From positions 1 through 41,492 of the forward strand of contig JAMXLJ010000148.1 in the NCBI GenBank assembly GCA_024281095.1: a stretch of 41,492 nucleotides of DNA, read 5' to 3'. This document shows positions 12,456-34,046 of this stretch, piece by piece (the first letter of the stretch is position 1; every line of letters starts with the position of its first letter). The notes beneath the pieces were generated by a model that saw only the letters and a list, made by a program, of their open reading frames with translations, searched no databases and was not told where the DNA came from. The stretch comes from Acidimicrobiia bacterium (GTDB lineage: Bacteria; Actinomycetota; Acidimicrobiia; IMCC26256; JAMXLJ01). A program made the translations under genes and the position numbers.

Positions 12456-15400
12456 TCAGGCGTCGCGGCGGCGTTCGAGGAACATTCCGCACGCGAGATC
12501 GACGGCGAGCAATGCCAGCGTGAGCCACGCGAGATCAGGGGCATGCGCGAGACGGCTCGCGACGAGCGCGACCGGCGCGCCGAGTGTCACCAGCCATCGG
12601 GCGCGCGGCACACGCGCGACCAAGGCGGCCGCCGCCGCGGCGACGATCCCGATCCACAGCCGCGAGAACGCGAAGGTCACCAGCCCGAGTGCGCCCGCGA
12701 GCGCCACCGTCGAGGTCCACGACGGCACACCGGCACTGATGAACCACAGCGGCGACGTCGAGACGGGCCTGTCGGCGAGCGCGGGTTGTGCCGGGCTCGC
12801 GGCCGCCAGGCGCCGGCGCCGGGTCGCGTTCACGACGATGCCGATGCACACCGCCACCGCGAGTGCGCTCAGGCCGAAGGCGATCCACACCTGGCGTTGT
12901 GGCGTCCACCGCAGGTGCAGGGTCATCGTGCCCGCGCTCCGGGGCCGGATCAGCCAGCCGTTCGCGTAGCCGTCGACGAGCTGCTGCGGCCCTACTGAAC
13001 CGCCGGTACCGCCGGCAACGCCGGCCTTCCAACCCTTGCTCGAGCTCTGGCCCAGCACCAACCAGAACGGTGAACCGTCCGTGCGCACGTTGACGTCGAC
13101 GGCCGTCGCATGGTTCGCAGTGACACGCACGGACGCGCCGGACGTCTGCAGCGGCGCGCCGAGCGGCGCGATCGCGGCCGGACCGCCGGTGCGGTCCGAC
13201 GAGAGCACGACCCGGTCGACGTCGACCGCGGTGGACAGGCCGACCGCCGACTGCAGGGTGTGACTGCCCGCGGACAAGCGCAGCGGCGGCGAGCACGACA
13301 CCACGCCGAGCCCCGTGCGGGCATCCGCGGCCGTACCGGTGAGGCGTACCGACATCGGTGCGCCGTCGACCCGCACCAGGTCGCTTCGGCATGCGCCCGA
13401 CAGCTCGGACGGCGCCGCGGGGCGCGGCACGCCGGGCACGCCGGCCTCCGCGATCGACACGGGCAGCGTCGCGGCGGGGCCGGGGTCGCCCGGGATCGCG
13501 GTGACACGCCGGACCTTCTCGATCCTGATCCGCACGTGACGCGCGGTCAGCGACGGGAACGACAGGTGCACGGTCTGCGTCGCGCCTTCGTGGGTGCCGT
13601 CCGCGATCGGCGGGACGTCGACGTCGCGTTGCTCGCCGGTGTCAGTCAGAAGGCGGAGCCGCGTCGGCACGGAATGCCGGCCGTCGGCGACCACGGTGAG
13701 GTCCTCGTGGTCGACCGTGATCGGCGCCGGCAGGGTGAGATCGAGGAACTGTCCCTCCTGCGGGCCGAGCGGCGCCGTCCACGCCGTCGCCGGATCACCG
13801 TCGAACGCGCGCGAAGCTCGCGCGTCGACGTCGCCCGTGAGATAACCCGAGGCCGCGTAGCCCACGCCCGGAGCCGTGGTTCCGAGCAGCTCGTCGATCT
13901 GCACGTCGGATGCACGTGCGTCGACGCGTGCCGTGCCGGTCAGCGCGAACGTGCGCGTGTCGGGAAGGACGAACCTGCGGTCGAGCGCGAGCTCCTCGTC
14001 CTGCTTGCCCGCGACACCGGGGTCGAAGCGCAGACGTGTGAGCACGACGTCGAGACGATGGCCCGAGGCGAGTCCACCCGTTCGCTGCGCGAAGTCGACC
14101 GGCAACCGAACGGTCTCGCTCACGTGGACATCGCCGAGGCGCACCTCCGCGAAACCGACCGCGTTCACGTGCTCGGGGTCGGGAACCGGGTTGGTGCGCA
14201 GCAGCGTGATCCGGAGCTTCTTCACCGTGCGTTCGGGGAACCGCACGACCTGACCGGCGGGATCGAATGACTCGGGGCCGAGGTCGACCGTCACGGGACT
14301 TCCATGGTCGAACGAGAGGCGCACCCTCGTGAGGTACCGGTCGCGCGGCCCGTCCTGCGGTTGCACGAGTGTCACCTGGTTCGTGCGGACCGGTTGGTCC
14401 GTACGCAACGTGATGCTCTGACCGCGGGGATCGGCGCCGCCGACGCGCCACGACGTCCGGGGATCACCATCGAATGCGTGCACCGCGCGGTCTTCGGGGC
14501 GCGGCGCGCCGCCGTCGCCCGTCGCGTCGACGCGGCCACCGATCTGTTCGACCACCGACCCGCTCGCGTCGGTGGAGCCCGGGAACGGATCGAGACGGAA
14601 GTCGTAGTGGTTCGGGTCGGGCAGCGTCTGCCCGGCGCGTTCCGTCGCGCCCTTCGTCGAGATGATCTGATAGAACCAGTTCTCGATGCGTCGCCGATTC
14701 GAATCGGTGAGCACGAGGTCGGCACCGTTGTCGAGCGCCTGACGAAGCTGCGTGCCGTCGAGCGCGGCGAGCTCCAGCACTTGGGCGTCACCGTCGAGCA
14801 GTCCTGCCGCGGTGCTGTCGACGATGCCCTCGCCGTCGCCCGCGAGCACCACGGGCTGACGCAGAGGCGCGGTGTGCACGATCGGGACCGCGCCCTGCAC
14901 CTGGAAGAGGGCGACGGGTGGCGGGTTCGGCGCGTTGTCGGGGGTGCGCAGCGCGACTTCGTCGACGAGCGGTGGTGAGGACACGTTCGGCGCCGGCGGC
15001 CCGAAGCCTTGTGGCGGGCTCAGGCCGGGCGGGACCGGCTGCGTCAGCTCCGCCCACAACGCGCGCGGTCTCGGCATCTCGAAGCGCTCGTACTGCATGT
15101 CGGATCGGAGCGCGATCGTGCCGATCCCGAACAGACGCGCCATCGGCGCGAGCGAGGCGGGCTCGAACGTCCCTTCCTGGATTCGATGGTCGATCGCGTC
15201 GAGGAGGTTGACCGACTGCGGCGAGCCGTACGGGAGCACCTCGCGCGCGACATACGGACGGTCGATCAGCCCGGGCGTGATCGGCTCGATGGCGTTCCCC
15301 CACCGGTATGCGGCGAAGTTCGCCCCCGGGATCTCGAGGACACGCGTCGCGTTGCCGCCGCGCTGCATCGCCGCCGCCGCGTCGAGCCAGTACCCCGGCA

Positions 15401-16709
15401 GCTGCTCGGGCCGCAGCACCTGCTTCGACAGGAAGCCACCGCCCTCCCACACCGGCGACAGCGCGGCGAATGCGATCGCGCCGACCATCACCGCGGCCGT
15501 TGCTTCGTGACGACGGATGCGGATCGATCCCACGGCGGCCGCGAGCAGACCCGCGAGGCCGAGCACGATCACGGGGTGGACGCGTGAGGTGTTGCGCAGC
15601 GCCAAGCCGAGCGACGAGTCGGTGGCGAAGCGCTTCCACAACGCGCCGTACGGGCTCGAATCGTCGTACGGCCATGCGCCCACACCGATGAGCGTGCCGG
15701 TGATGACGAGCAACACGAAGTAGGCGCGGTAGCGCCAGCGCATGATCGCCGCAGCGACGAGCGCGGCAACAGGCACGAGGTAGCTGAACGAGACGGCGAA
15801 CCAGTGGTTGTTGACGTACGCGCGGGCCTGGTCGACGGTGTACCCCAGCCGGTCGGTGCCGTAGAAGAACCAATCGCCGAGCCCGCGGAGCAGGTCGCCG
15901 GGCGACGAGGACTTCGACACCGTGCGGACGTTCTCGGTGAGCTGCAGGACGGGCAGGCCGTACGCGCCCTGCAGGCGGAGCCCGACGGCCCACCACAACG
16001 ACACGCCGATACTGAGCGCGCCGATCCGTGCGGCCGCGCCCGCGGCCGCACGCGCCGCGGCCCGGCCCTGTACGGCTTCCAGCACCAACCAGAGAATGGG
16101 TGCGACGCCCGCGAGGAGCAATGCAGACGCGTTCACGCCGCCCACCGCGAGGACGATCAACGCGAACAGCGCCGGATCGCGCCAGCCGCCGCGACGGGTG
16201 GCACGGACCGTGAGGCCCACGAGCCATGGGAGCGCGGCCCACGGCAGCAGCAGCACGGAGATCCGGGCCGTGAACGAGAGCTGATGCGGCGTGAGCATGT
16301 ACACGAGCGCACCCGCGAGCGCGCCGGCCCGCCCGGTTCCCAGCATGCGGAAGAGCCAGCGTGCCCCGAGCGCCGCGGCCAGCGAGATGGTCCCGAGCCA
16401 GATGCGTTGGGCGATCCAGATCGGAACGCCGACACGGTCCATCAGCCAGTAGTACGGCCCCATCGGGAACAGGTAGCCGATCTGCTGGTGGGGCACGGTG
16501 CCGGCGCCCACGTGCGGGTCCCACATGAACAGCGCGCGGGCGAGGAAGCGCCCCGGGTCGGTGTAGAGGTACTGCTTCGTGTCGCTGCTGACGAGATGAC
16601 GCGCCGACAAGAAGAACGGGACGTAGGCGACGAGCGCGAGCCCGACGACCTCGAGCACGCCCGCGCGCGATCGTTCGTGTCGCGCGGAGGGCGCGATGGT
16701 GCGCATCAT
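12456..16709 (-). CDS. AftD-like GT-C arabinofuranosyltransferase (DUF3367), copy B
   Basis: A 1417-residue paralogue of copy A, in convergent orientation. The N-terminal GT-C region contains SSDTKQYLYTDPGRFLAR and FPMGPYYWLMDRVG, aligned residue by residue with copy A. Two F5/8-type modules follow (HAFDGDPRTSWRVGG, about 745; RAFDGDPATAWTAPL, about 970), then the segment GSPFWLVLGQSSSKGWKAG and a C-terminal membrane bundle starting near residue 1275. The start at 16709 is chosen because TAGCAT lies 10 bases upstream; a longer frame to 16745 would place the -10 box inside the gene. Expected role: transfer of arabinofuranose or a similar lipid-linked sugar outside the membrane. The pair may act on different branch positions. 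Confidence 0.88.
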   Translation of the reverse strand: MMRTIAPSARHERSRAGVLEVVGLALVAYVPFFLSARHLVSSDTKQYLYTDPGRFLARALFMWDPHVGAGTVPHQQIGYLFPMGPYYWLMDRVGVPIWIAQRIWLGTISLAAALGARWLFRMLGTGRAGALAGALVYMLTPHQLSFTARISVLLLPWAALPWLVGLTVRATRRGGWRDPALFALIVLAVGGVNASALLLAGVAPILWLVLEAVQGRAAARAAAGAAARIGALSIGVSLWWAVGLRLQGAYGLPVLQLTENVRTVSKSSSPGDLLRGLGDWFFYGTDRLGYTVDQARAYVNNHWFAVSFSYLVPVAALVAAAIMRWRYRAYFVLLVITGTLIGVGAWPYDDSSPYGALWKRFATDSSLGLALRNTSRVHPVIVLGLAGLLAAAVGSIRIRRHEATAAVMVGAIAFAALSPVWEGGGFLSKQVLRPEQLPGYWLDAAAAMQRGGNATRVLEIPGANFAAYRWGNAIEPITPGLIDRPYVAREVLPYGSPQSVNLLDAIDHRIQEGTFEPASLAPMARLFGIGTIALRSDMQYERFEMPRPRALWAELTQPVPPGLSPPQGFGPPAPNVSSPPLVDEVALRTPDNAPNPPPVALFQVQGAVPIVHTAPLRQPVVLAGDGEGIVDSTAAGLLDGDAQVLELAALDGTQLRQALDNGADLVLTDSNRRRIENWFYQIISTKGATERAGQTLPDPNHYDFRLDPFPGSTDASGSVVEQIGGRVDATGDGGAPRPEDRAVHAFDGDPRTSWRVGGADPRGQSITLRTDQPVRTNQVTLVQPQDGPRDRYLTRVRLSFDHGSPVTVDLGPESFDPAGQVVRFPERTVKKLRITLLRTNPVPDPEHVNAVGFAEVRLGDVHVSETVRLPVDFAQRTGGLASGHRLDVVLTRLRFDPGVAGKQDEELALDRRFVLPDTRTFALTGTARVDARASDVQIDELLGTTAPGVGYAASGYLTGDVDARASRAFDGDPATAWTAPLGPQEGQFLDLTLPAPITVDHEDLTVVADGRHSVPTRLRLLTDTGEQRDVDVPPIADGTHEGATQTVHLSFPSLTARHVRIRIEKVRRVTAIPGDPGPAATLPVSIAEAGVPGVPRPAAPSELSGACRSDLVRVDGAPMSVRLTGTAADARTGLGVVSCSPPLRLSAGSHTLQSAVGLSTAVDVDRVVLSSDRTGGPAAIAPLGAPLQTSGASVRVTANHATAVDVNVRTDGSPFWLVLGQSSSKGWKAGVAGGTGGSVGPQQLVDGYANGWLIRPRSAGTMTLHLRWTPQRQVWIAFGLSALAVAVCIGIVVNATRRRRLAAASPAQPALADRPVSTSPLWFISAGVPSWTSTVALAGALGLVTFAFSRLWIGIVAAAAAALVARVPRARWLVTLGAPVALVASRLAHAPDLAWLTLALLAVDLACGMFLERRRDA

Positions 16710-16719
16710 TCGGTGCCGA

Positions 16720-16725
16720 ATGCTA
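16720..16725 (-). promoter_or_regulatory. -10 box TAGCAT of the second AftD-like gene
   Basis: On the minus strand TAGCAT ends 10 bases before ATG 16709. It is the same hexamer as that of the paralogue at 7884-7889, implying shared promoter design and a very short or absent leader. Confidence 0.5.
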
Positions 16726-16827
16726 CTGCCGCCTCTGCCCCGCACCGCGGTCGGCGACGCGCCGTCGCGCGGCCACGGGCCGCGAGCGGAGCCGCCGGAG
16801 GTCCACCAGCGCGCGGCTCCCGCTGAC

Positions 16828-22576: not shown

Positions 22577-22664
22577 ATACCCAGGGCAGGGTGGACATTG
22601 CACGGACAGTGTGGGGTCGTTGGCGTCGCGCGTATAGCGCCGGCGCGTGGGCAAGGGGCCAGTG

Positions 22665-24428
22665 GTGCGCCGGCGACGCGCTGAGGAGGCGCCGGCAGGC
22701 GCGCCGGTACCCGTGGCCACGCTCGTGCCGGACCTCGACGCAGCGGTCGACCGCGCACGACTCGGTGATGTGCTGGTGGAGACGGGCAGCGTGGGACGCG
22801 ACGCCGTCGAGACGGCCGCTGCGAGCCTTCGCGGAACCCGCCTCGGAACGGCGCTGTTGGAGGACGGTCTCCTCGACGAGATCGCATTGACGGCCGCACT
22901 GGCCCGGCACTTCCGGCTGCCGGTTCTCGATCTCCGCAAGGCGAAGCCCGCCCCGACCGCGACCGAGCTCGTGAGCGAGAGCGACGCCCACCAATTCGAC
23001 GTTCTCCCGGTGTCGCTCGACGAGGGCGTGCTGCACGTCGCGGTCGCCGATCCGCTCAACCGGGAGCTGCTCGATCACCTCCGCCGGCTGCCGGTGAAGC
23101 AGGTGAACGTCGCGCTCGGCGTGCCGTCGCATCTGCGCAACCGCGTCAACCAGACCTACCGCGCATTGTCCGAAGTCCAGACCGACATCGACGCGTTCCG
23201 TTCGAGCGCGCGCACGACCGACGAGCTGACCGTCGCGGACGACGCGACGGACCAGGATGCACCGATCGTCCAGGTCGTCAACAAGATCGTGACACAGGCC
23301 CTGCGCGACCGCGCGTCCGACGTGCACATCGAGCCGACCGACGAAGGCGTCAACGTGCGCTTCCGTATCGACGGCGCGCTGAAGGAGATCGTCACGCTGC
23401 CCGGCGAGATGGCGGCCGCGCTCGTGAGCCGGCTCAAGATCATGGCCGACATGAACATCGTCGAGCGACGCCGTCCTCAGGACGGGCAGTTCGAGATGAC
23501 GGTCGACGGTCGCATGCTCGATGTTCGCGTCTCGACGACCACGACCATCTGGGGCGAGAAGGCCGTGCTGCGGCTGCTCGACCGCAAGCGTTCACTCCTG
23601 CGCCTGGGCGACCTCGGGATGCCGCCGAGCTCAGGCGAGCGGTTCTCGCGCATCGTCGGTTCGCCGTTCGGGATGGTGATTGTCGCCGGTCCGACCGGAA
23701 GCGGGAAAACGACGACGCTGTACGCGACCTTGACCGAGATCAACCGGCCCGACATGAACGTCATGACCATCGAGGACCCGGTCGAGTACGTCTTCCCCAA
23801 GATCAACCAGATCCAGATCAGCGAGCAGGCGGGGCTCACGTTCGCGACCGGGCTCAAGTCGATCCTGCGCCAGGACCCCGACGTCATCCTCGTCGGCGAG
23901 GTGCGCGACGTCGAGACGGCACGCATCGCCGTGCAGAGCGCGCTCACCGGTCATCTCGTGCTCTCCTCGGTGCACGCCATCGACGCCGTGTCCGCGCTGT
24001 ACCGGCTCCTCGACATGGGAATCGAATCCTTCCGCGTCACCTCGGCGATCGTCGGTGTCGTGGCGCAGCGCCTGGTCCGCAGGATCTGCCGGTCGTGTGC
24101 CCGTCCGTACACCCCGTCGGCTCAGGAGCAGGCGCTGTTCCGCAACCTGGGCGGTGCCGCGAAGGACTCCTGGGTGCGCGGCGAGGGATGCAGCCTCTGC
24201 TCGGGCACCGGTTACTTCGAGCGCCTCGGGGTGTTCGAGGTGCTCAGTCTCACCGACGAGATCCGTCAAGCGCTCGTAGAAGGCACGCCTCCTCGGGTGA
24301 CGCGCGAGCTCGCGGTCCGGCAAGGGATGTCCAGCCTCCAGACGGAGGCGCTGCGGCTCGTCGCCGCCAATGTCACGACCCTGGACGAGGTGGTTCGTCA
24401 CGTGTTCGGAGCGGAGGGCTCGCAATGA
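22665..24428 (+). CDS. pilB: Type IV pilus assembly ATPase PilB (GspE family)
   Basis: A 587-residue cytoplasmic motor ATPase. An N-terminal MshEN-like domain (about 20-150; LGDVLVETGSVGRDAVE, RLGTALLEDGLLDEIALTAALARHF) is of the type that can bind cyclic di-GMP. The motor core shows DASDVHIEP-type sequence (RASDVHIEPTDEGVNVRFRIDG), Walker A GPTGSGKTTT with K348, the Asp box TIEDPVEY, Walker B QDPDVILVGEVRD and the His box GHLVLSSVHAIDA. A zinc tetracysteine follows (CRSC...CSLC). It powers pilus extension. GTG 22665 is chosen because AAGGGG lies 6 bases upstream; GTG 22647 is possible. It begins the operon and overlaps pilC by 4 bases. Confidence 0.95.
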   Translation: MRRRRAEEAPAGAPVPVATLVPDLDAAVDRARLGDVLVETGSVGRDAVETAAASLRGTRLGTALLEDGLLDEIALTAALARHFRLPVLDLRKAKPAPTATELVSESDAHQFDVLPVSLDEGVLHVAVADPLNRELLDHLRRLPVKQVNVALGVPSHLRNRVNQTYRALSEVQTDIDAFRSSARTTDELTVADDATDQDAPIVQVVNKIVTQALRDRASDVHIEPTDEGVNVRFRIDGALKEIVTLPGEMAAALVSRLKIMADMNIVERRRPQDGQFEMTVDGRMLDVRVSTTTTIWGEKAVLRLLDRKRSLLRLGDLGMPPSSGERFSRIVGSPFGMVIVAGPTGSGKTTTLYATLTEINRPDMNVMTIEDPVEYVFPKINQIQISEQAGLTFATGLKSILRQDPDVILVGEVRDVETARIAVQSALTGHLVLSSVHAIDAVSALYRLLDMGIESFRVTSAIVGVVAQRLVRRICRSCARPYTPSAQEQALFRNLGGAAKDSWVRGEGCSLCSGTGYFERLGVFEVLSLTDEIRQALVEGTPPRVTRELAVRQGMSSLQTEALRLVAANVTTLDEVVRHVFGAEGSQ

Positions 24429-25561
24429 CCGACGTCATGACCGCACGACCGGCAGTTGCACCGCCGAGCGACGACCGCGAACGGCCGACTCCCTGGTACA
24501 AGCAGCGCATCGCGATCGGTCGCGAGATCAAGAGCGTCGAGCTCATGAACTTCTCGCGCCAGGGCGCTTCGTTCCTGCGTGCCGGCGTTCCGATTCTGGA
24601 CGCGCTCGGCATCGTCGCCGAGGAGAACGGCTCGAAGAAGATGACGGAGGTTCTCCACGACCTCCAGCGGCGAATTCGCGGCGGTTCGAGCTTCGGTGAC
24701 GCGCTCGCTGCGCACCCCCGGGCCTTCCCCCGCTACTACATCGCGGTCGTGCGCGCGTCGGAGCTCACGGGCCGGCTCGACGACGCGCTCGACCAGCTCG
24801 CAACGTATCTCGAGCGCGACATCGCCGCTCGCCGTCAGGTCAAGAGCGCGTTGACCTACCCGAGCTTCGTGTTCGCGATGGCGATCGTCGCGGTGTTCAT
24901 CATGGCGATCTGGGTGCTGCCGAAGTTCAAGGGCTTCTACAAGGGACTCGGCGCACACCTGCCGCTTCCCACCCGCATGCTCCTCGGCTTCACCGACTTC
25001 ATCGGCAACTGGTGGTTCCTGCTCGTCGGCCTCGCCGCCGGGCTGGGAATCGCCGCGTACGCCGTCCTCGGCGGCGATCACGGCAAGGAGCGTCGCGACA
25101 ACCTCGTGCTCAAGGTTCCCGGGATCGGTCCGCTCGTGCAGCTGATCGTGATCGAGCGGTTCTGCCGCGTCCTCGCCGCACTGGTCGACGCCGGCGTGTC
25201 GCTTCCCGAGGCGGTGCGCGTGTCGGCCGACAGCACGAACCACCGGCTGTACCAGACGAAGCTCGCGGCCGCCCGCGAAGGCATGATGCGAGGTGAAGGT
25301 CTGGCCGCGCCGATCACCGCCACGGGTCTGTTCCCTCCGGCGGCGCGCCAGATGATGCGCGTCGGCGAGAGCACGGGCTCGCTCGACGCGCAGTTGCAGG
25401 CGGCCGCAACCTTCTACGAGCGCGAGCTGAACTACCGGCTGAAGCGGTTGACCGACATGTTCGAACCGATCGTGGTCCTCACCGTCGGCGGTGCTGTGGG
25501 GTTCGTCGCCATCGCACAGATCTCGGCGATGTACAGCATCTACCACCAGGTGAAGATCTAG
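24425..25561 (+). CDS. pilC: Type IV pilus inner-membrane platform protein PilC (GspF family)
   Basis: A 378-residue protein with two T2SSF domains. The first (about 40-160) contains FSRQGASFLRAGVPILDAL and TYPSFVFAMAIVAVFIMAIWVLPKF, a domain followed by a membrane helix. The second (about 240-360) contains RFCRVLAALVDAGVSLPEAVRV and RVGESTGSLDAQLQAAATFYEREL. It ends in a third helix (PIVVLTVGGAVGFVAIAQISAMYSIY). The protein sits in the cytoplasmic membrane, where PilB and PilT act on it to add or remove pilins. ATG 24425 overlaps the pilB stop (ATGA), so translation is coupled. Length and helix pattern are normal for the family. Confidence 0.94.
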   Translation: MTDVMTARPAVAPPSDDRERPTPWYKQRIAIGREIKSVELMNFSRQGASFLRAGVPILDALGIVAEENGSKKMTEVLHDLQRRIRGGSSFGDALAAHPRAFPRYYIAVVRASELTGRLDDALDQLATYLERDIAARRQVKSALTYPSFVFAMAIVAVFIMAIWVLPKFKGFYKGLGAHLPLPTRMLLGFTDFIGNWWFLLVGLAAGLGIAAYAVLGGDHGKERRDNLVLKVPGIGPLVQLIVIERFCRVLAALVDAGVSLPEAVRVSADSTNHRLYQTKLAAAREGMMRGEGLAAPITATGLFPPAARQMMRVGESTGSLDAQLQAAATFYERELNYRLKRLTDMFEPIVVLTVGGAVGFVAIAQISAMYSIYHQVKI

Positions 25562-25647: not shown

Positions 25648-26025
25648 ATGACAGTGACCGAGCACCCGACGCAGCAAAGGGATGAGCGTGGATTCACGCT
25701 CATCGAGCTGCTCGTCTCCATCGTCGTCGTCGCGATCCTGGCCGCCGTGGCCATCGTCGGCGTCGGTGGTCTGCAGAACAAAGGCAGCTCGAGCGCGTGC
25801 CAGGCGTCGGTGGACGCGGCGAAGGCTGCTTCTGCCGTGCACTACGCCAACACCGGCTCGTGGCCGACGACCTTCGACGCGATGACCGGCGCCACGCCGG
25901 CTCCCGAGTTCGAGGTTGCGTCGGGCGTGACCGCGACCGGCACCACCCTCAAGAACGGCAGCAACTGGTCGGTGACGATGGGCGGCGGCGGCAGCTCGCC
26001 GAACACGTTCACCGCGTGCCCGTAG
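25648..26025 (+). CDS. pilA: Major type IV prepilin
   Basis: A 125-residue prepilin. The 15-residue leader ends in the prepilin peptidase site RG|FTLIELL, with Glu at mature position 5 (E20), and the hydrophobic helix continues as VSIVVVAILAAVAIVGV. The mature part is about 110 residues with one Cys near the start (C51) and one at the C-terminus (ACP), likely a disulphide as in many pilins. A Ser/Thr/Gly-rich globular region (TGATPAPEFEVASGVTATGTTL, SNWSVTMGGGGSS) follows. A strong ribosome-binding site and the flanking hairpins suggest high expression. It is the probable main subunit of the fibre. No prepilin peptidase gene is in view. Confidence 0.93.
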   Translation: MTVTEHPTQQRDERGFTLIELLVSIVVVAILAAVAIVGVGGLQNKGSSSACQASVDAAKAASAVHYANTGSWPTTFDAMTGATPAPEFEVASGVTATGTTLKNGSNWSVTMGGGGSSPNTFTACP

Positions 26026-26119: not shown

Positions 26120-26500
26120 GTGCGCACTCGTGACGAAGCAGGAGAGAGCCTCATCGAGATCGTGATCGCGCTCGTGATCCTCGGTGCCGTCGTCTCCGCG
26201 ATGCTCGCGACCATCGCCACCTCGGCGACGAGCTCGAAGGGGCACCGTGACCTCGTGACCGCCGACGCGGCGCTCCGCAACTACGCGGAAGCGACGAAGT
26301 CGGCCGTGCGTACGTCGTGCACCTCGAGCGGCGCCACGTACACCGTGTCGTACACCGCCCCGAGCGGATTGGGCGTGAGCCCCGTTCCGTCGACTTCGCA
26401 GCCGTGCCCCTCCACCACGAGCGTCACGGTGGTGCACCTTCAGGTCACCTTGCCGTCCGGCACGGTGAAGCCGTTGGACAGCGAGGTCCGGGCGCCATGA
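26120..26500 (+). CDS. Minor pseudopilin, PilV/PilE-like
   Basis: A 126-residue prepilin-like protein. The leader MRTRDEAG is followed by ESLIEIVIALVILGAVVSAMLATIA: cleavage after G8 leaves Glu at mature position 5 (E13). The first mature residue is Glu rather than Phe, which is unusual but tolerated by prepilin peptidases. The globular part has two Cys (TSCTSS, SQPCPS) and is otherwise Ser/Thr-rich. The GTG start at 26120 is supported by a perfect AAAGGAGG at 26107-26114, 5 bases upstream. The gene overlaps the next by 4 bases. It probably belongs to the priming complex or tip of the pilus together with the next two proteins. Confidence 0.85.
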   Translation: MRTRDEAGESLIEIVIALVILGAVVSAMLATIATSATSSKGHRDLVTADAALRNYAEATKSAVRTSCTSSGATYTVSYTAPSGLGVSPVPSTSQPCPSTTSVTVVHLQVTLPSGTVKPLDSEVRAP

Positions 26501-26976
26501 CCCGTCGGGTTCAGACGCGCTCGGAACAGGGCGCGGCCCTCGTGCTCGCAATCGGCGTCATGGTCGTGATCGGCCTGATCGCGACGACTTCTCTGGCGCT
26601 CATCACGACGAGCGTGAACGGACGGGCCACCCTCGACGCCGTCCGCAACCGCCAGTACGCCGCCGACGGCGCGGTCGAGGCGACCATCGCGCACGTGCGC
26701 ACGGTGTCGAGTCCGGGGCTCGGACCGTGCGGCGGCCCCTACACGTACCCGGCGCTCAACAAGGTTGCGATCCACGTCGACTGCGTGAACGTTCCGACGC
26801 TCACGACGAGCGGCGCGCTCCAGCGCAACGTCGTGTTCACCGCGTGCATCGACACCGGCGTGCTCTGCACGGACTCGAGCGCGATCGTGCGGGCCCAGGT
26901 CAACTACGAGGCCACCTCGATCTCGAACCCCACCATCACGCGCACCTACGTGCAGTCATGGAGCGTGAACCGATGA
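26497..26976 (+). CDS. PilX-like minor pilin-associated protein
   Basis: A 159-residue protein with the PilX-type N-terminus EQGAALVLAIGVMVVIGLIATTSLALITT: a Gly-Ala start to the helix, and no Glu at position 5. This is typical of PilX/GspK-like subunits thought to cap the pilus tip. The rest is a soluble domain with four Cys (GPCGG, VDCVN, TACIDTG, VLCTD) that could form two disulphides. ATG 26497 overlaps the preceding stop by 4 bases, and the gene overlaps the next ATG by 4 bases, so the three minor subunits are translationally coupled. The assignment rests on the helix and on its place between PilV-like and PilW-like genes. Confidence 0.8.
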   Translation: MTRRVQTRSEQGAALVLAIGVMVVIGLIATTSLALITTSVNGRATLDAVRNRQYAADGAVEATIAHVRTVSSPGLGPCGGPYTYPALNKVAIHVDCVNVPTLTTSGALQRNVVFTACIDTGVLCTDSSAIVRAQVNYEATSISNPTITRTYVQSWSVNR

Positions 26977-29666
26977 GCCGGCGCGGCGCCGTTCGAAAGG
27001 CCGTGGCTCGACGCGCGGGAGACCGCGGCTTCACGCTCATCGAACTGCTCGTGGCGATCACGCTCCTCGGGCTCGTCACGGGCGCGCTCACCGCGGTCTT
27101 CCTCACCGCGATCAACGGCACCCAGGCCGGCGCCGAGCGGGTGCGCGAGTCGAGTGACGCGCAGCTCGTCGCCGCGTTCCTGACGCGCGACGCACAGGCC
27201 GCGGGCGGGACGAACCCTGCGACCGGTTCGGTCGACACCTCACTCGGCGTCTCGCTCACGGATGCGGCCGGCTGCACCGGGCCGGGCGCCATGGTGGTCC
27301 GCTTCAAGTGGCAGGACCGCTCGAGCACGGTCGCCCACCTGCGGGTCGCGGCGTATTACTTCAACTCGGCTGCCGCTCAGCTGGTGCGCGTGACCTGCAC
27401 CGACGGGTCCGTGGGTCCGTCGATGACCCTGGGCAGCCACGTCGGCACCAATCCCGCCGCCCCCACCGCGAGTTGCAATCCGTCGTCCGCTTGCCCCGGT
27501 CTGCCGAACACGGTCTCCCTGACCGTCAGCGAGAGCAACAACCCACTGAACTCCCCTTCGCCGTACACGTACACACTCACCGCGAGCCTCCGCCCGCAGG
27601 CGCAGACACCGCCTTCGGGCGAGGACAACAGCGTTCCCTTGCTCCTCCTCGCCAACGGGTCCTCGTGCCCGGCCGGCGGGGCGCTCGCGATGTCGGCCCA
27701 GGGCGGCGGCGCCTCGACCCTTCGCATCCACGGCGGGGCCGCGGTGAGCGGCTACAGCCCGAACTGCCCCTCGGTGTCGTTCCAAGGCTCGGTCGACTAC
27801 AAGGCCGCCGACGGCACGTACGTGCTTTCGCCGGGCACGTGTCAGGGAGTGACCTGCAACACGTTCGCCACACCCATCGCGGACCCGTTCGCGGGTCTCA
27901 CCCCGCCGTCGGTCAACTGCTCGGGCGCGAACCCGGCACCGCAGAACGGCGTGTACCCGGCAGGCACGTACCCGCAGGCGCTGAGCGTGGGGAACGCGAC
28001 GTTCAGCGCCGGCACGTACGTGTTCTGCCACGGCCTCACGACGAGCGGCAACGTGGTCGCGAACAACGTGCTGTTCTACTTCGCCGGCGGCACGCTGACG
28101 GTGTCGGGCGGTTCGTTCGCGAGCTCGGCGCAGTCCGGTAACGCGTACGCCGGCGTCGCGGTGTGGCAGCCCGCGAGCAACGCGACGGCAATGAACATCT
28201 GCTGCAGCAACAACACCATCGCCTCGATCGACGGCGCGCTGTACGCGCCGGGCGCGGTCGTCAACCTTCACAACGGCACCATCTCGATCAAGATGCTCGT
28301 CGCGCTGGCGGTCGCATGGAGCGGCGGCGGCAATGGCGGGACGTCGATCGGCACCGTGCCCCCGGCCCTCGCGATCACGGGCCCGGCCGGCCTGCCCGCA
28401 TCGAGCCAGAACGCGCCGTACCCGAACACGACCGTGACCGCGACGGGCGGTGACGGCGCCTACACATGGAGCCAGACCGGCCTGCCCGCCGGCCTCACGA
28501 TCGACCCCCTCACGGGCGTGATCTCCGGTACGCCCACGGCCTCGGGCAACTTCACCGTGCAAGTGAAGGTCACCGACGCATTCAACGCAACGGCGACGCA
28601 GTCCTACCCGCTCACCATCAATCCGCCCGTCACCATCACCGGGCCGTCGACGCTTCCGTCGTGGACAAAGGGACGTGTGTACCCGAACACGTCGATGACG
28701 TCGACCGGCGGCACCGGGACGGTCACGTGGTCTGCGACCGGCCTGCCCGCCGGGCTGTCGATCGCGCCGGCGAGCGGAGTGATCTCCGGCACGCCGACGA
28801 CACCCGGCACGTCGAATGTGACCGTCGTCGCGACTGACGGCACCGGCGCAACCGCGACGAAGAGTTACACCGTGACGATCAACACGACGCCGTCGATCGC
28901 CACGACTGCGCTGCCGAACGGCGAGAAGAGCGTGGCATATTCGGCGACGTTGGCGACGAGCGGTGGGACCGCGCCGTTCACCTGGACGGCCACGGGCCTC
29001 CCGAACGGCCTGTCGCTGAACTCGGGCACCGGCGTGATCTCGGGCACGCCCACGACGACCGGTTCGTACACGATCAACCTGGGTGTCACGGACGCTTCGG
29101 GTGCGGGCGCGTCCGGCACTGCCTCGCTCGTGCTGTACCCGCAGCTGAGCATTACGGGCCCAACCTCCCCGCCCGCATGGACCGCGGGGCGTGCGTACCC
29201 CGCCACGACTGCGACCGCGACCGGCGGCACCGGCAGTTACAGCTGGTCGGCGACCGGCCTGCCGACGGGGATGTCGATCAACGCATCCACGGGCGTGATC
29301 GGTGGCACACCGGCCACGGCCGGCGCCTACACCGTGACGGTCAAGGTGACCGACACCGCCTCGCCGCCGTTCAGCGCAACGAGGACGTACACGCTCACGA
29401 TCAACGCGCCACCGGCGATCACACCGACCAACACGAGCGTGAAGAAGAACAAGGCGTTCAGCTTCACGCCCGGCACGACCGGTGGCACGACGCCGTTCAC
29501 GTGGTCGATCTCCGGCCAGCCGGGATGGGTCGCACTCAACCCGTCGACCGGTCTGGTGAGTGGGACCGCACCGAACGGCACCGGCACGTTCAACTTCACG
29601 CTCGGTGTCACCGACGCGGCGGGCTCCGTCGCCACGGTGACGTACACCATCACGGTCACGAACTGA
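26973..29666 (+). CDS. Giant PilW-like pseudopilin with five Ig-like (He_PIG) repeats
   Basis: An 897-residue protein. The leader ends in RG|FTLIELLVAITLLGLVTGAL, a complete prepilin site (cleavage after G19, Glu5 at E24), so it should enter the pilus machinery. Residues about 45-200 resemble a PilW-type globular domain. Residues about 210-450 form a Cys-containing, Gly/Ser-rich beta region (NGVYPAGTYPQALSVGNATFSAGTYVFCHG, SIDGALYAPGAVVNLHNG) that looks like a polymer-binding or beta-helical domain. From about 467 to the end are five 85-90-residue repeats of the putative Ig type (e.g. YTWSQTGLPAGLTIDPLTGV followed by ISGTP). PilW proteins are usually near 200-350 aa, so this is a strong expansion, probably a tip adhesin. 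Confidence 0.85.
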   Translation: MSRRGAVRKAVARRAGDRGFTLIELLVAITLLGLVTGALTAVFLTAINGTQAGAERVRESSDAQLVAAFLTRDAQAAGGTNPATGSVDTSLGVSLTDAAGCTGPGAMVVRFKWQDRSSTVAHLRVAAYYFNSAAAQLVRVTCTDGSVGPSMTLGSHVGTNPAAPTASCNPSSACPGLPNTVSLTVSESNNPLNSPSPYTYTLTASLRPQAQTPPSGEDNSVPLLLLANGSSCPAGGALAMSAQGGGASTLRIHGGAAVSGYSPNCPSVSFQGSVDYKAADGTYVLSPGTCQGVTCNTFATPIADPFAGLTPPSVNCSGANPAPQNGVYPAGTYPQALSVGNATFSAGTYVFCHGLTTSGNVVANNVLFYFAGGTLTVSGGSFASSAQSGNAYAGVAVWQPASNATAMNICCSNNTIASIDGALYAPGAVVNLHNGTISIKMLVALAVAWSGGGNGGTSIGTVPPALAITGPAGLPASSQNAPYPNTTVTATGGDGAYTWSQTGLPAGLTIDPLTGVISGTPTASGNFTVQVKVTDAFNATATQSYPLTINPPVTITGPSTLPSWTKGRVYPNTSMTSTGGTGTVTWSATGLPAGLSIAPASGVISGTPTTPGTSNVTVVATDGTGATATKSYTVTINTTPSIATTALPNGEKSVAYSATLATSGGTAPFTWTATGLPNGLSLNSGTGVISGTPTTTGSYTINLGVTDASGAGASGTASLVLYPQLSITGPTSPPAWTAGRAYPATTATATGGTGSYSWSATGLPTGMSINASTGVIGGTPATAGAYTVTVKVTDTASPPFSATRTYTLTINAPPAITPTNTSVKKNKAFSFTPGTTGGTTPFTWSISGQPGWVALNPSTGLVSGTAPNGTGTFNFTLGVTDAAGSVATVTYTITVTN
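28372..29663 (+). repeat. Five tandem intragenic repeats of about 260 bp
   Basis: Repeat units begin near 28372, 28629, 28890, 29145 and 29416, giving periods of 257, 261, 255 and 271 bases. Conserved DNA such as GACCGGCCTGCCCGCCGG recurs in several units. Each encodes an Ig-like fold with the landmark GLP.G(L/M)(T/S)I...TGVI(S/G)GTP. The last unit is most diverged (ISGQPGWVALNPSTGLVSGTA). Repeat number could vary by recombination. Confidence 0.8.
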
Positions 29667-29678
29667 TCAGGAGATCTG

Positions 29679-30782
29679 ATGACAACGCTTCCGCTTCTCG
29701 ACCTGGTCCTCGACGCCGTCATCCGGTGCGATGCGACCGACATGCTGCTCACGACCGGTTCGGAGCCGATGATGCGGATTGGCGGCGTGCTGCAGGCAAC
29801 CGGCGAGTTCCCCGCATTGGGCGAACCCGAGATGCGCGAGATGCTGTCTGCGCTGACCGACGAGGGCCAGCGGGCCCAGCTCGAGGCCGACCGCGACCTC
29901 GACTTCGCGTTCTCGTTCGGCGACGGGCGCTTCCGTGCCAACGCGTTCTTCGAACGCGGCCGGCTCGCGATCGCGTTGCGTCTCATGCACCGCGAGATCC
30001 CGACGTTCGACGAGATCGGTCTCCCGCATTCGGTGCGCGAGCTCGCGTCGCTCCACCAGGGCCTGATCCTGTTCACCGGGCCCACCGGATCGGGCAAGTC
30101 GACGAGCCTCGCGACGCTCGTGGACGCGGTGAACGCCACTCGACCGTGCCACATCATCACGATCGAGGACCCGGTGGAGTACCTGCACCGGGACCGCCGA
30201 GCGGTGGTCCACCAGCGGGAGATCGGTCTCGACGCACAGTCGTTCGACCGGGCGCTGCGCGCCGCGCTCCGCGAAGACCCCGACGTCGTCCTCGTCGGTG
30301 AGATGCGGGACCTCGAGAGCATCGAGATCACGTTGCGGCTCGCGGAGACCGGCCATCTCGTCATGTCGTCGCTGCACACCAACGACGCCGCGCAGGCCCT
30401 CGACCGCATCGTCGACGTCTTCCCCGCCGACCGGCAGGCACAGATCCGGCTGCAGCTCGCGAGCGTCCTGTCGGGCGTCGTCGCGCAGCGGCTCGTTCCG
30501 AGCGTGCACGGCGGGCTCGTCGCGGCGTTCGAGGTGTTGATCGCAACGTCGGGCGTGCGCAACCTGATCCGCGAGGGCAAGACGCGTCAGATCCGCAACG
30601 CGATGCAGCTCGGCATCGCTTCCGGCAACCAGACGCTCGAGATGTCGCTGAACGAGTTGGTCGCGGCGGGCACGATCAGCGTCGAGACCGCGCTCGCCAC
30701 CGCGTTCGTGCCCCACGAGGTCGACGCACCCGCGCACCTCGAGATCGTCTCCCCGTTCGCGGCGGTGAACGCGGCCGGTTGA
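29679..30782 (+). CDS. pilT: Type IV pilus retraction ATPase PilT
   Basis: A 367-residue motor of normal PilT length. Landmarks are Walker A GPTGSGKST (K140), the Asp box TIEDPVEYLHRD, Walker B EDPDVVLVGEMRD, and the His box TGHLVMSSLHTNDAAQALDRIVD. Near the end is the stretch RNAMQLGIASGNQTLEMSLNELV, close to the AIRNLIRE motif of the family (here VRNLIREGK just before). It depolymerises pili, giving twitching, surface sensing or DNA uptake. An AGGAG ribosome-binding site lies 12 bases after the pilW-like stop. Here pilT is the last gene of the operon, after the minor pilins, instead of beside pilB. Retraction makes a delivery or tethering role of the large adhesin plausible. Confidence 0.94.
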   Translation: MTTLPLLDLVLDAVIRCDATDMLLTTGSEPMMRIGGVLQATGEFPALGEPEMREMLSALTDEGQRAQLEADRDLDFAFSFGDGRFRANAFFERGRLAIALRLMHREIPTFDEIGLPHSVRELASLHQGLILFTGPTGSGKSTSLATLVDAVNATRPCHIITIEDPVEYLHRDRRAVVHQREIGLDAQSFDRALRAALREDPDVVLVGEMRDLESIEITLRLAETGHLVMSSLHTNDAAQALDRIVDVFPADRQAQIRLQLASVLSGVVAQRLVPSVHGGLVAAFEVLIATSGVRNLIREGKTRQIRNAMQLGIASGNQTLEMSLNELVAAGTISVETALATAFVPHEVDAPAHLEIVSPFAAVNAAG

Positions 30783-31529: not shown

Positions 31530-31626
31530 CGGCCGTTCGTTCGACGGAGCGCAGCGAGGAGCGGCACGCGACGTGGCGCTGCTCGGTGCTTTCCCCCACT
31601 CGCCCCTCCCTGACTGCAAGGCCACG

Positions 31627-32607
31627 ATGCGCCCCTTCAGAACCCTGTCCCTCGCCGCGAAGTCCGGCGCCGTAGTGGCCGCCGGCGCCTTGACCGCCGG
31701 TACAGCCGCAGCGCTGTTCGCCGCCGGCAGTGGCCCGGCGAGCATGACGCCTGCGCCTGCGATCACCAGCGCTCCGTCGACGCCGACACGCGCGACGAGC
31801 GCGGCATTCACGTTCACCGACACCGCACCTGGCGCGGTCTTCTCCTGCGCGTTCGACGCGAGCACCTTCGCTTCGTGTCAGAGCCCCACGACCTACGCCG
31901 CCCTCGGCGACGGCACGCACACGTTCCGGGTGCGTGCACAGGCGTCCAACAGGTCGATGAGCACGGCGACCGCGCGCACATGGACCGTGGACACGGTCCC
32001 ACCTCCTCCGCCGACTTTCACCACCGCGCCGAACGACCCGACCACTGCGACCAGCGCCCAGTTCGCGCTGTCGGATTCCGACGGTGGCGCCACCTTCCAG
32101 TGCGCGCTGGACGGAGGCGCGTCCAACAAGTGCTCGAGCAGGCCCGTCTACACGGGTCTTTCCGTGGGGGACCACTGCCTGCGCGCGCAGGCGGTCGACC
32201 CTGCCGGCAACCTCAGCAGGGCCGTCTCGTCGTGCTGGACCATCGTCATCCGCGGCGGGTTCGACATCACCGGCGACGTCGTCGCGCTCGCCCCGGGGGT
32301 CAACCGGCCCCTGAATCTGACGATAAAGAATCCGTTCAACTTCCCGATCCGGGTCACCGACGTGTCGATCGGCATCCAGAGCTCCACGAACCGGCCCACG
32401 TGTTCGCCGTCGGCCAACCTGCTCGTCGACCACGGGCTGCTCGTGCCCGTGAACGTTCCGGCCAACAGCACCCGGACCCTGCAACAGCTCGGCGTCGACC
32501 CCGCATCGTGGCCCCTCGTCGCGATGCTCGACCTCGCCACGCCGCAGGACTCGTGCAAGGGCGCCGTGTTTCCCGTCCGCTACACCGCGACGGCAAGCAA
32601 GCCATGA
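31627..32607 (+). CDS. Secreted protein with two Ig-like repeats and a TasA-like C-terminal domain
   Basis: A 326-residue exported protein. The signal region is PFRTLSLAAKSGAVVAAGALTAGTAAALFAAG. Two repeats follow, each with a Cys pair and the pattern FSCAFDAS...C.SPTTYAALGDGTHTFRVRAQ (first, about 45-125) and FQCALDGG...C.SRPVYTGLSVGDHCLRAQAVDPAGNLS (second, about 130-210), with proline-rich linkers (DTVPPPPPTF). The C-terminal 115 residues (LAPGVNRPLNLTIKNPF..., DSCKGAVFPVRYTATA) recall the mature part of the TasA-like protein upstream (LYPGTSSTVSFTVDNPS..., DACQAGTITLHLTSN), suggesting they are related. It might anchor or cap that fibre. ATG 31627 is preferred over ATG-less upstream frame. 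The stop overlaps the next gene's ATG. Confidence 0.7.
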   Translation: MRPFRTLSLAAKSGAVVAAGALTAGTAAALFAAGSGPASMTPAPAITSAPSTPTRATSAAFTFTDTAPGAVFSCAFDASTFASCQSPTTYAALGDGTHTFRVRAQASNRSMSTATARTWTVDTVPPPPPTFTTAPNDPTTATSAQFALSDSDGGATFQCALDGGASNKCSSRPVYTGLSVGDHCLRAQAVDPAGNLSRAVSSCWTIVIRGGFDITGDVVALAPGVNRPLNLTIKNPFNFPIRVTDVSIGIQSSTNRPTCSPSANLLVDHGLLVPVNVPANSTRTLQQLGVDPASWPLVAMLDLATPQDSCKGAVFPVRYTATASKP

Positions 32608-34046
32608 GGTTCCGTACCCGCGCAGCGGTCGTGCTCGTCACGACGCTGGTCGTCACCGCGAACGCCGCAATCGCCTGGGCCTACTTCAGCTCGATGGGAA
32701 CCGGCAGTACGAACGCCTCGGTCGGCACGCTGAGCGCTCCGACCGCCCCGGGCGTGAATGCATCCCCGACCGCGGCCCCGGTGCACGTCACCTGGACCGG
32801 CGTCGGTCCCCCTCGCGGCTCGACCGCGGTTGGCTACTGGGTACGCCGCTCCAACGGCGCGACGGCGACCGACGTATGCGGCAGTTCGAAGACGAGTCCG
32901 ATCTCAGCCGGCACCGGGGCGAAGAGCTGTGACGACACGAGCGTCGCGGTTGGTGGGCCCTACACCTACACCGTCACGTCGGTCTGGCGTTCGTGGACCG
33001 CCCAGAGCGGCTCCAGCAGCGCGGTGACGGTCACCACTCTCGATCACTTCAATGTCAGCGCGAGCACGTCGGCGCCGACTGCGGGCACCGCGTTCAATGT
33101 GACGGTTACGGCGAAGGACGCATCCAACGCCACCATCGCGGGCTACACCGGCACCGTCCACTTCACGAGTAGCGACGCGCAGGCCACGCTGCCATCCGAC
33201 TACACGTTCGTGTCCGGTGACAACGGCGTCCACGCCTTCAACAGCGCCGTCACGCTCAAGACCGCGGGCGGTCAGAGCGTGAACGTCAAGGACACGTCAC
33301 AGACGACGAAGACCGGAACAACGAGTGTCACCGTCTCCGCCGCGGGCCTCGACCACTTCGCGGTCGCGAACCCCGGGACTCAGGTCGCCGGCACCGCCTT
33401 CAACCTCAGCATCACCGCGCAGGACCTGTACAACAACACCGTCACGGGTTACACGGGCTCGAAATCGCTCACGTTCAGCGGCCCGGGCAGCGCCCCGAAC
33501 GGCACCGCACCGAGCTACCCGTCGTCGGTCTCGTTCGGTGTTGGCACGGCGAGCCCGAGCGTTACGTTGTCGAAGGCGCAGGCCACGACACTGACGGTCA
33601 GCGACGGGACGCACACGGGAACAAGTGCCTCCTTCACGGTCAATACCGGTACGGCCACAAAGCTCGCGTGGACGCACGTGACCGCGGGCGGGACGCTTTC
33701 GAGCCCGTGCCTGTTCACATGTACCGACACCGCGCTCGGCAACAACAACACGTTCACTGCCAACGTCAGCGTCACGGATACGTGGGGCAACACCGTGAGC
33801 AATCTGGGTAGCGGCCACACCGTCACCGTCTCGACACCGAGCAGCGGCGCGGGCAGCGGCGGCGTGTTCACGCCCGGGAACACGACGTCCGTAACGTTGA
33901 CGATCGCGAGCAGCGGCACGGCGGACTCCACCGCCCAGTTCACGTTCAAGACCCAGAACGGCAATTGGACGTCCGACACGCTGGCCGCGCAGACGCTGGC
34001 CGGCACGGTGTACGCCAGCGCCTCCGCAACGGTGACGAAGAACTAG
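32604..34046 (+). CDS. Large secreted protein with TasA-like N-terminus and Ig/invasin-like repeats
   Basis: A 480-residue exported protein. The N-terminus is RTRAAVVLVTTLVVTANAAIAWAYFSSMG then GSTNASVG, the same TasA-like pattern as the gene at 31048. A fibronectin-like domain follows (VHVTWTGVGPP..., YTYTVTSVWRSWTAQSGSS, about 60-145). Three bacterial Ig or invasin-like repeats come next: LDHFNVSASTSAPTAGTAFNVTVTAKD, LDHFAVANPGTQVAGTAFNLSITAQD and TKLAWTHVTAGG...NNTFTANVSVTDTWGN. The first two share a clear 100-residue period. There is no LPXTG, so wall attachment is unexplained. It starts in the ATGA overlap with the previous gene, so the two are translationally coupled. Likely an adhesin-like partner of the small subunit. 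Confidence 0.75.
   Translation: MRFRTRAAVVLVTTLVVTANAAIAWAYFSSMGTGSTNASVGTLSAPTAPGVNASPTAAPVHVTWTGVGPPRGSTAVGYWVRRSNGATATDVCGSSKTSPISAGTGAKSCDDTSVAVGGPYTYTVTSVWRSWTAQSGSSSAVTVTTLDHFNVSASTSAPTAGTAFNVTVTAKDASNATIAGYTGTVHFTSSDAQATLPSDYTFVSGDNGVHAFNSAVTLKTAGGQSVNVKDTSQTTKTGTTSVTVSAAGLDHFAVANPGTQVAGTAFNLSITAQDLYNNTVTGYTGSKSLTFSGPGSAPNGTAPSYPSSVSFGVGTASPSVTLSKAQATTLTVSDGTHTGTSASFTVNTGTATKLAWTHVTAGGTLSSPCLFTCTDTALGNNNTFTANVSVTDTWGNTVSNLGSGHTVTVSTPSSGAGSGGVFTPGNTTSVTLTIASSGTADSTAQFTFKTQNGNWTSDTLAAQTLAGTVYASASATVTKN

Follow-up and report, generated by a model that had tools for sequence, protein, structure and literature searches.

An 897-residue modular minor pilin with a predicted beta-solenoid and five Ig-like repeats in a type IV pilus operon of an Acidimicrobiia bacterium

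Analysis of a 41,492-nucleotide stretch of DNA (positions 1-41,492 of contig JAMXLJ010000148.1, assembly GCA_024281095.1), hereafter the window, from a bacterium of the class Acidimicrobiia revealed a giant PilW-like modular minor pilin of 897 amino acids (aa), encoded at 26973-29666 (+) in the same type IV pilus operon as pilT. The protein consists of a prepilin leader and pilin part, a putative DUF7305-like beta-solenoid and five immunoglobulin (Ig)-like He_PIG domains, and probably sits at the tip of a type IVa pilus (T4aP) that PilT can retract. Modular pilins explain how a single pilus machine serves many functions, and the best-studied examples are from Firmicutes and diderms.

Coding sequence and pilin part

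The frame at 26973-29666 (+) runs through 897 codons without a stop, and the translated protein begins MSRRGAVRKAVARRAGDRG/FTLIELLVAITLLG. Its GC content by codon position (0.58/0.63/0.87) is the pattern of a coding frame. The start of the gene overlaps the stop of the upstream PilX-like gene in the sequence ATGA (26973-26976), and pilT starts 12 nt past its stop. The Pfam model N_methyl scores 30.3 bits at residues 17-39, against a cut-off of 21.2, and TIGR02532 scores 25.9 bits (cut-off 16.3). The expected prepilin cleavage site lies between G19 and F20 (G19/FTLIE), which places the conserved Glu5 at E24. The protein thus combines the class III signal peptide and N_methyl motif with Glu5 that characterize type IV pilins with the extra modules, five He_PIG domains and a solenoid, that make such a pilin modular. 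This agrees with the original prediction of an oversized pilin with a prepilin leader and five C-terminal repeats, and the union of an N_methyl motif with Glu5 and five He_PIG domains in a single frame supports the assignment as a modular minor pilin.

The leader, a long alpha1 helix and the pilin head occupy residues 1-210 (26973-27602, +); in the AlphaFold2 model, helices at residues 22-48 and 52-76 are followed by beta strands predicted at low confidence. When this part alone was compared with PDB sequences, no E-value below 0.27 was obtained. The gspJ model reached 14.4 bits against a cut-off of 64.85, and no PilW model was among the curated-model matches of the protein; the label 'PilW-like' refers to gene order and pilin shape.

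Solenoid module

A module of approximately 250 residues (residues 211-462, 27603-28358, +), absent from the original description, separates the repeats from the pilin part. We assign it as a DUF7305-like beta-solenoid from model confidence, VIA-align Z-scores and hidden Markov model matches to other pilins and to Tad proteins. No Pfam family matched this region over its cut-off, the best being DUF7305 (PF23981) at 13.2 bits against 27, and a search of the source genome with that family gave no match at the gene. The name is used because the orthologous region of one ortholog (L049) passes the cut-off with 29.8 bits; that of L048 falls below it (24.7 bits), and no DUF7305 match was found in those of L047 and L050.

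The AlphaFold2 model of the whole protein, built on five sequences, contains a beta-helix from residue 311 to about 450 with a predicted local distance difference test score (pLDDT) of about 80-95. The solenoid domain modelled alone has a pLDDT of 72 and a predicted template modelling score of 0.79. In VIA-align, the first model aligned with ice-binding proteins of the DUF3494 family at up to Z 14.5 over 187-188 residues (root-mean-square deviation (rmsd) 3.2) and with the pilin ComZ at Z 11.7 over 225 residues (rmsd 5.0). With the lone domain the corresponding values were Z 13.5 over 178 residues (rmsd 3.1) and Z 11.5 over 197 residues (rmsd 3.6); unrelated entries came next, near Z 8. Ice-binding or antifreeze proteins filled the first 22 places of the ranking with the first model and the first 25 with the lone domain. 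Foldseek returned no E-value at or below 0.001 for either model, and the likeness in fold depends on VIA-align, which re-aligns Foldseek's own candidates only. In the model, the predicted solenoid comes after the pilin strands, rather than being inserted among them as in ComZ, with the pilin part itself at low confidence.

At the sequence level, the solenoid of the giant pilin alone gave only chance-level matches to PDB sequences. A profile of 11 solenoid domains (A7) had a DUF3494 protein as its best PDB sequence match (E 0.0073), a profile of the Tad-type solenoids found no DUF3494 chain in the PDB, and hhalign of the solenoid profile against 11 DUF3494 proteins of the class gave a probability of 37% over 82 columns. 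We are fairly sure that the predicted fold resembles those of the DUF3494 proteins and ComZ; common descent with the former is plausible, and ice binding is not indicated. The domain has 3 lysine plus arginine residues in 248, a pI of 5.2 and one T-x-T motif, and the DUF3494 family (PF11999) has no match in the source genome.

He_PIG repeats

Pfam He_PIG matches five stretches of the protein (E 1.9e-64). With boundaries set by hand, the repeats lie at 28365-28625, 28626-28886, 28887-29141, 29142-29408 and 29409-29663 (all +), have lengths of 87, 87, 85, 89 and 85 aa and share 36-56% pairwise identity. Repeats 1 to 4 are assigned by Pfam and by a profile built from the repeats, and the divergent C-terminal repeat 5 by the profile, which found exactly five significant copies, all within the C-terminal half. 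No tandem array at the period of the protein repeats is left at the DNA level, and the five copies are therefore old protein repeats and not the product of an assembly collapse. Repeat 5 is most similar to the last repeat of the ortholog L047 (55%). Against the PDB, the repeats matched domains of SraP, the serine-rich adhesin for platelets (4m00, 4m03; E 6.5e-16 to 4m03), domains that form a cadherin-like stalk. SraP is a wall-anchored adhesin with a lectin part and is not a pilin.

Orthologs and their variation

The first 456 residues of the giant pilin were searched in 61 genomes (the source and 60 relatives). Some match was present in 25, and in six of them (the source, G009, G020, G033, G037 and G043) it spanned both the pilin part and the solenoid; in the remaining 19 it lay in or near the pilin part. 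All six encode He_PIG repeats in the same frame, and the five other genomes belong to the same order as the source. The pilin and solenoid of the five orthologs are 30-49% identical to those of the giant pilin. In contrast to the source with its 5 repeats, L047 (G009, JANYBW010000085.1) has 11, L048 (G020, JADGOO010000017.1, Acidimicrobiia bacterium, Chersky) and L049 (G033, SXHN01000116.1) have 2 each, L050 (G037, PLBO01000088.1, palsa) has 8 and L008 has 3.

The ends vary as well. After the repeats, L048, L049 and L008 carry a similar-looking C-terminal tail of 165-171 aa (L048 11909-12403; L049 2070-2582; L008 139-642, -), for which no Pfam family was found over its cut-off, and L050 ends in a different one, matching Qn_am_d_aIII with 31 bits. 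The tail of the former three may be an alternative tip domain. A constant pilin and solenoid, a stalk of variable length and a variable end together form a pattern that would fit an adhesin. The T4aP operon of these uncultured soil actinobacteria thus offers a design series from a plain pilin, through a pilin with solenoid, to a pilin with solenoid, 2 to 11 Ig domains and changing ends.

The surroundings of the gene are best preserved in L048, where the gene order is that of the window and the identities are 69% for PilB, 67% for PilC, 55% for the pilin, 55% for PilV, 52% for PilX, 45% for the giant pilin and 69% for PilT. L050 has the same pilus genes, but its pilT is inverted and located 2.5 kb downstream. 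L047 and L049 begin at contig ends, which cut off all upstream genes but the last part of the PilX-like one, and their sequences of 7.5 and 11.5 kb, respectively, gave no match to PilT.

The pilus operon and other pilus genes of the source genome

The order of genes in the window is pilB, pilC, pilin, pilV-like, pilX-like, giant pilin and pilT. The first encodes an extension ATPase of the PilB/GspE type with an MshEN domain (22647-24428, +, start codon uncertain; T2SSE 409.5 bits, MshEN 60.4 bits), which the NCBIfam GspE/PilB models match well, yet under their equivalog cut-offs. It overlaps by ATGA with the gene of the platform protein PilC (24425-25561, +; T2SSF 186.7 bits; inferred start MTDVMTARP). 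These are followed by a type IV pilin of 125 aa, the probable major pilin (25648-26025, +; N_methyl 37.5 bits, TIGR02532 31.9 bits), and by a PilV/GspI-like minor pilin of 126 aa with the leader G/ESLIE (26120-26500, +), whose N_methyl score of 20.4 bits is just under the cut-off of 21.2. The next protein (26497-26976, +), which lacks Glu5 and has no Pfam or NCBIfam match, is called PilX/GspK-like from its position and N-terminal pattern; its gene has ATGA overlaps at both ends. The retraction ATPase at 29679-30782 (+) is a genuine PilT (TIGR01420 pilT_fam 415.9 bits, cut-off 319.1). Within this type IV pilus operon, the giant pilin occupies the minor-pilin slot.

Elsewhere in the source genome, contig C63 carries genes for a prepilin peptidase, PilM and PilO together. 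Taken together, the window and C63 supply a T4aP set in the source genome, with the extension ATPase, PilC, PilT, prepilin peptidase, PilM and PilO. A second type IV pilus locus on contig C153 (L051) contains pilB, pilC and short pilW-, pilV- and pilX-like genes. The PilB of this locus shares 53% identity with that of the window, and its PilW-like protein, at under 200 aa, has the usual length and no solenoid or Ig part. Apart from both loci, contig C33 (L082, 1414-3003, -) encodes a 529-aa PilX-like protein with a partial DUF7305 match of 24.2 bits when scanned alone (cut-off 27) and 27.1 bits when scanned with its neighbours.

Distribution of the solenoid

A solenoid profile (A1) run on 296 genomes of the class found matches in 22. 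The carrier was a prepilin-type protein in 12 of these (N_methyl over the cut-off in nine, below it in L008, and the motif recognized by eye in L032 and L039) and a Tad-domain (PF13400) protein in nine (eight over the cut-off and L035 just below); the one left (L044) had no recognized N-terminus. A second place in G043 (L045), cut at its start, was excluded from these counts. The pilin and Tad versions form one family by hhalign (probability 99.7%, E 1.4e-26), which points to a tip module common to two pilus types.

In a sample of the phylum, a profile of pilin plus solenoid matched 11 of 396 genomes at E 1e-10, mostly in the pilin part alone. In G432, a genome outside the class, the match covered both parts of a 469-aa protein with pilin and solenoid without Ig repeats, whose gene adjoins PilC, PilV-, PilX- and pilin-like genes. 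DUF7305 matched none of 14 control genomes. DUF3494 ice-binding proteins were found in 9 of 119 class genomes (L066-L080), including the giant-pilin carriers G037 and G043; the source genome has none.

Relation to known modular pilins

The original prediction regarded this architecture as undescribed, which does not hold. Raynaud et al. 2021 (PMC8179133) sorted >1,200 modular pilins into 264 architectures, and N-methyl with PF05345 (He_PIG) is among their 15 commonest; the giant pilin, itself carried by 6 of the 61 related genomes including the source, has in common with that group the prepilin motif and He_PIG on one chain. No solenoid linking the pilin and Ig parts is mentioned in the accessible text of that survey, a comparison that applies to architectures and not to individual proteins. 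A search of the open-access literature found no trimodular pilin with a ComZ- or DUF3494-like solenoid and no paper on DUF7305. The new part is thus the trimodular form in a dedicated operon, whereas the combination of N_methyl and He_PIG is of a kind already known.

Among the closest known systems are PilB and PilC of Streptococcus sanguinis, adhesive minor pilins with a proposed tip location (PMC8179133, PMC9934059). Like the giant pilin, they carry an extra C-terminal module and belong to a monoderm T4aP with PilT as its retraction ATPase. They differ in that this module is a single vWA or lectin domain whose ligands have been measured, in place of a putative solenoid and Ig stalk. ComZ of Thermus thermophilus (PDB 6qvi, PMC6561018) is likewise described as a pilin with a large beta-solenoid and a proposed tip location (Z 11.5-11.7 to our models), but its solenoid lies within the pilin sheet, it has no Ig repeats and it binds DNA. 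For all three, the tip location was proposed from structures and modelling (PMC8179133, PMC9934059, PMC6561018), as the body of the filament has no room for so bulky a module. PMC6916266 describes PilT-driven retraction in monoderm T4aP and assigns to the Tad type the actinobacterial pili that had been studied by 2019. In the Tad system, TadG of the TadG/KilN type, with its C-terminal modular domain, has been modelled at the pilus tip (PMC12075869), and a table in a 2023 review (PMC10191384) still places TadG in a membrane sub-complex. These minor pilins belong to another pilus system and have another N-terminus than the giant pilin, with whose solenoid that of the Tad-domain proteins of the class shares a family, as described above. 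The DUF3494 proteins (PF11999), finally, are alike in predicted fold without a confident sequence relation.

Proposed function and alternative explanations

Taking S. sanguinis PilB/PilC and ComZ as models, we suggest the following arrangement. Prepilin peptidase would cut the giant pilin after G19 and methylate F20, and the pilin part would pack with the PilV-like and the Glu5-less PilX-like proteins into a complex that starts and caps the T4aP. The predicted rigid solenoid would then be presented outside the filament, capping it, and the five cadherin-like domains would form a stalk beyond it. As an Ig domain measures approximately 4 nm, this stalk would be roughly 20 nm long. The most distal repeat or end domain would be the probable contact surface, and the PilT of the operon would retract the pilus, pulling the cell toward whatever the stalk holds. 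A retractable adhesin, as originally suggested, is the likeliest reading of this PilW-like minor pilin with a genuine PilT in its operon. The leader, the modules, the operon, the orthologs and the variation in repeat number and end are seen in the sequences, and we infer from them the processing, pilus assembly, tip position, retraction, adhesion and presence of a ligand.

Several observations weigh against this arrangement. The AlphaFold2 model is weak in the pilin part, with pLDDT blocks of 27-57. PilN (PF05137) was unmatched in the source genome; the family matched only 2 of 14 control genomes, and PilM and PilO, which are adjacent on C63, leave a gap that could hold PilN. The genus-mate G001 has no solenoid protein, and its locus has a short PilW. 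The PilX-like neighbour without Glu5 could be the terminal cap, with the giant pilin one step below. He_PIG is annotated only as putative Ig, and no recognized ligand-binding domain is present in the giant pilin, which leaves a stalk without a known hand.

Among other explanations, the solenoid pilin may act as ComZ does, as a receptor by which DNA is caught at the tip of a PilT-retracted competence pilus. ComZ is indeed the pilin with such a solenoid among the PDB entries returned, and PilT is in the operon. We nevertheless consider this unlikely, since the solenoid of ComZ sits inside the pilin sheet according to its published description (PMC6561018) and that of the giant pilin is predicted to follow the pilin part. 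The scarcity of basic residues and the low pI of the domain also speak against DNA binding, and the five-domain stalk would be left unexplained. It is rather improbable that the pilin leader is a mere membrane or wall anchor and the Ig stalk a surface fibre off the pilus. He_PIG arrays are frequent in surface proteins, and some pseudopilins never leave the envelope; however, the position between the PilX-like and PilT genes is kept, the gene is coupled through ATGA, Glu5 is conserved, and the pilin part is conserved like the remainder of the protein.

The prominence of DUF3494 proteins in the structural comparison and as the best PDB match of the solenoid profile, together with the relatives from metagenome-assembled genomes labelled Chersky and palsa, could suggest that the solenoid retains DUF3494-like ice binding and, in cold soil, fastens the cell to ice. 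In that case, the product of the operon would be a retractable pilus holding on to an ice or mineral lattice via the tip solenoid, with the Ig stalk beyond. This is very unlikely, as is the related proposal that the solenoid is a descendant or sister of the DUF3494 proteins and has kept their affinity for ice or another ordered surface. The profile-profile match to the DUF3494 proteins of the class is weak, the source genome has no PF11999 protein, the same fold occurs in ComZ of a thermophile, the same domain is found on Tad proteins across the class, and the domain has a single T-x-T motif. Finally, the assembly consists of 177 contigs, of which the window is one, and a pilin gene could have been fused to an unrelated repeat protein by an assembly or annotation artefact. 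This is hardly conceivable, because independent orthologs in five other genomes carry the same fusion of pilin, solenoid and He_PIG with the same junction region, and the frame has no stop; an assembly error or a missed stop, which would have overturned the original prediction, is thus ruled out.

Other genes in the window

Downstream of pilT, an Ig-like secreted protein is encoded at 31573-32607 (+), and a second one starts MRFRTRAAVVLV within the frame at 31875-34046 (+). By eye, the proteins of 31573-34046 resemble exported proteins of the SipW/TasA type, with no confident family. Two very large convergent genes (7899-12395, +, and 12456-16745, -) encode proteins of 1498 and 1429 aa, respectively, which by eye look like membrane proteins and have N-termini that look alike.

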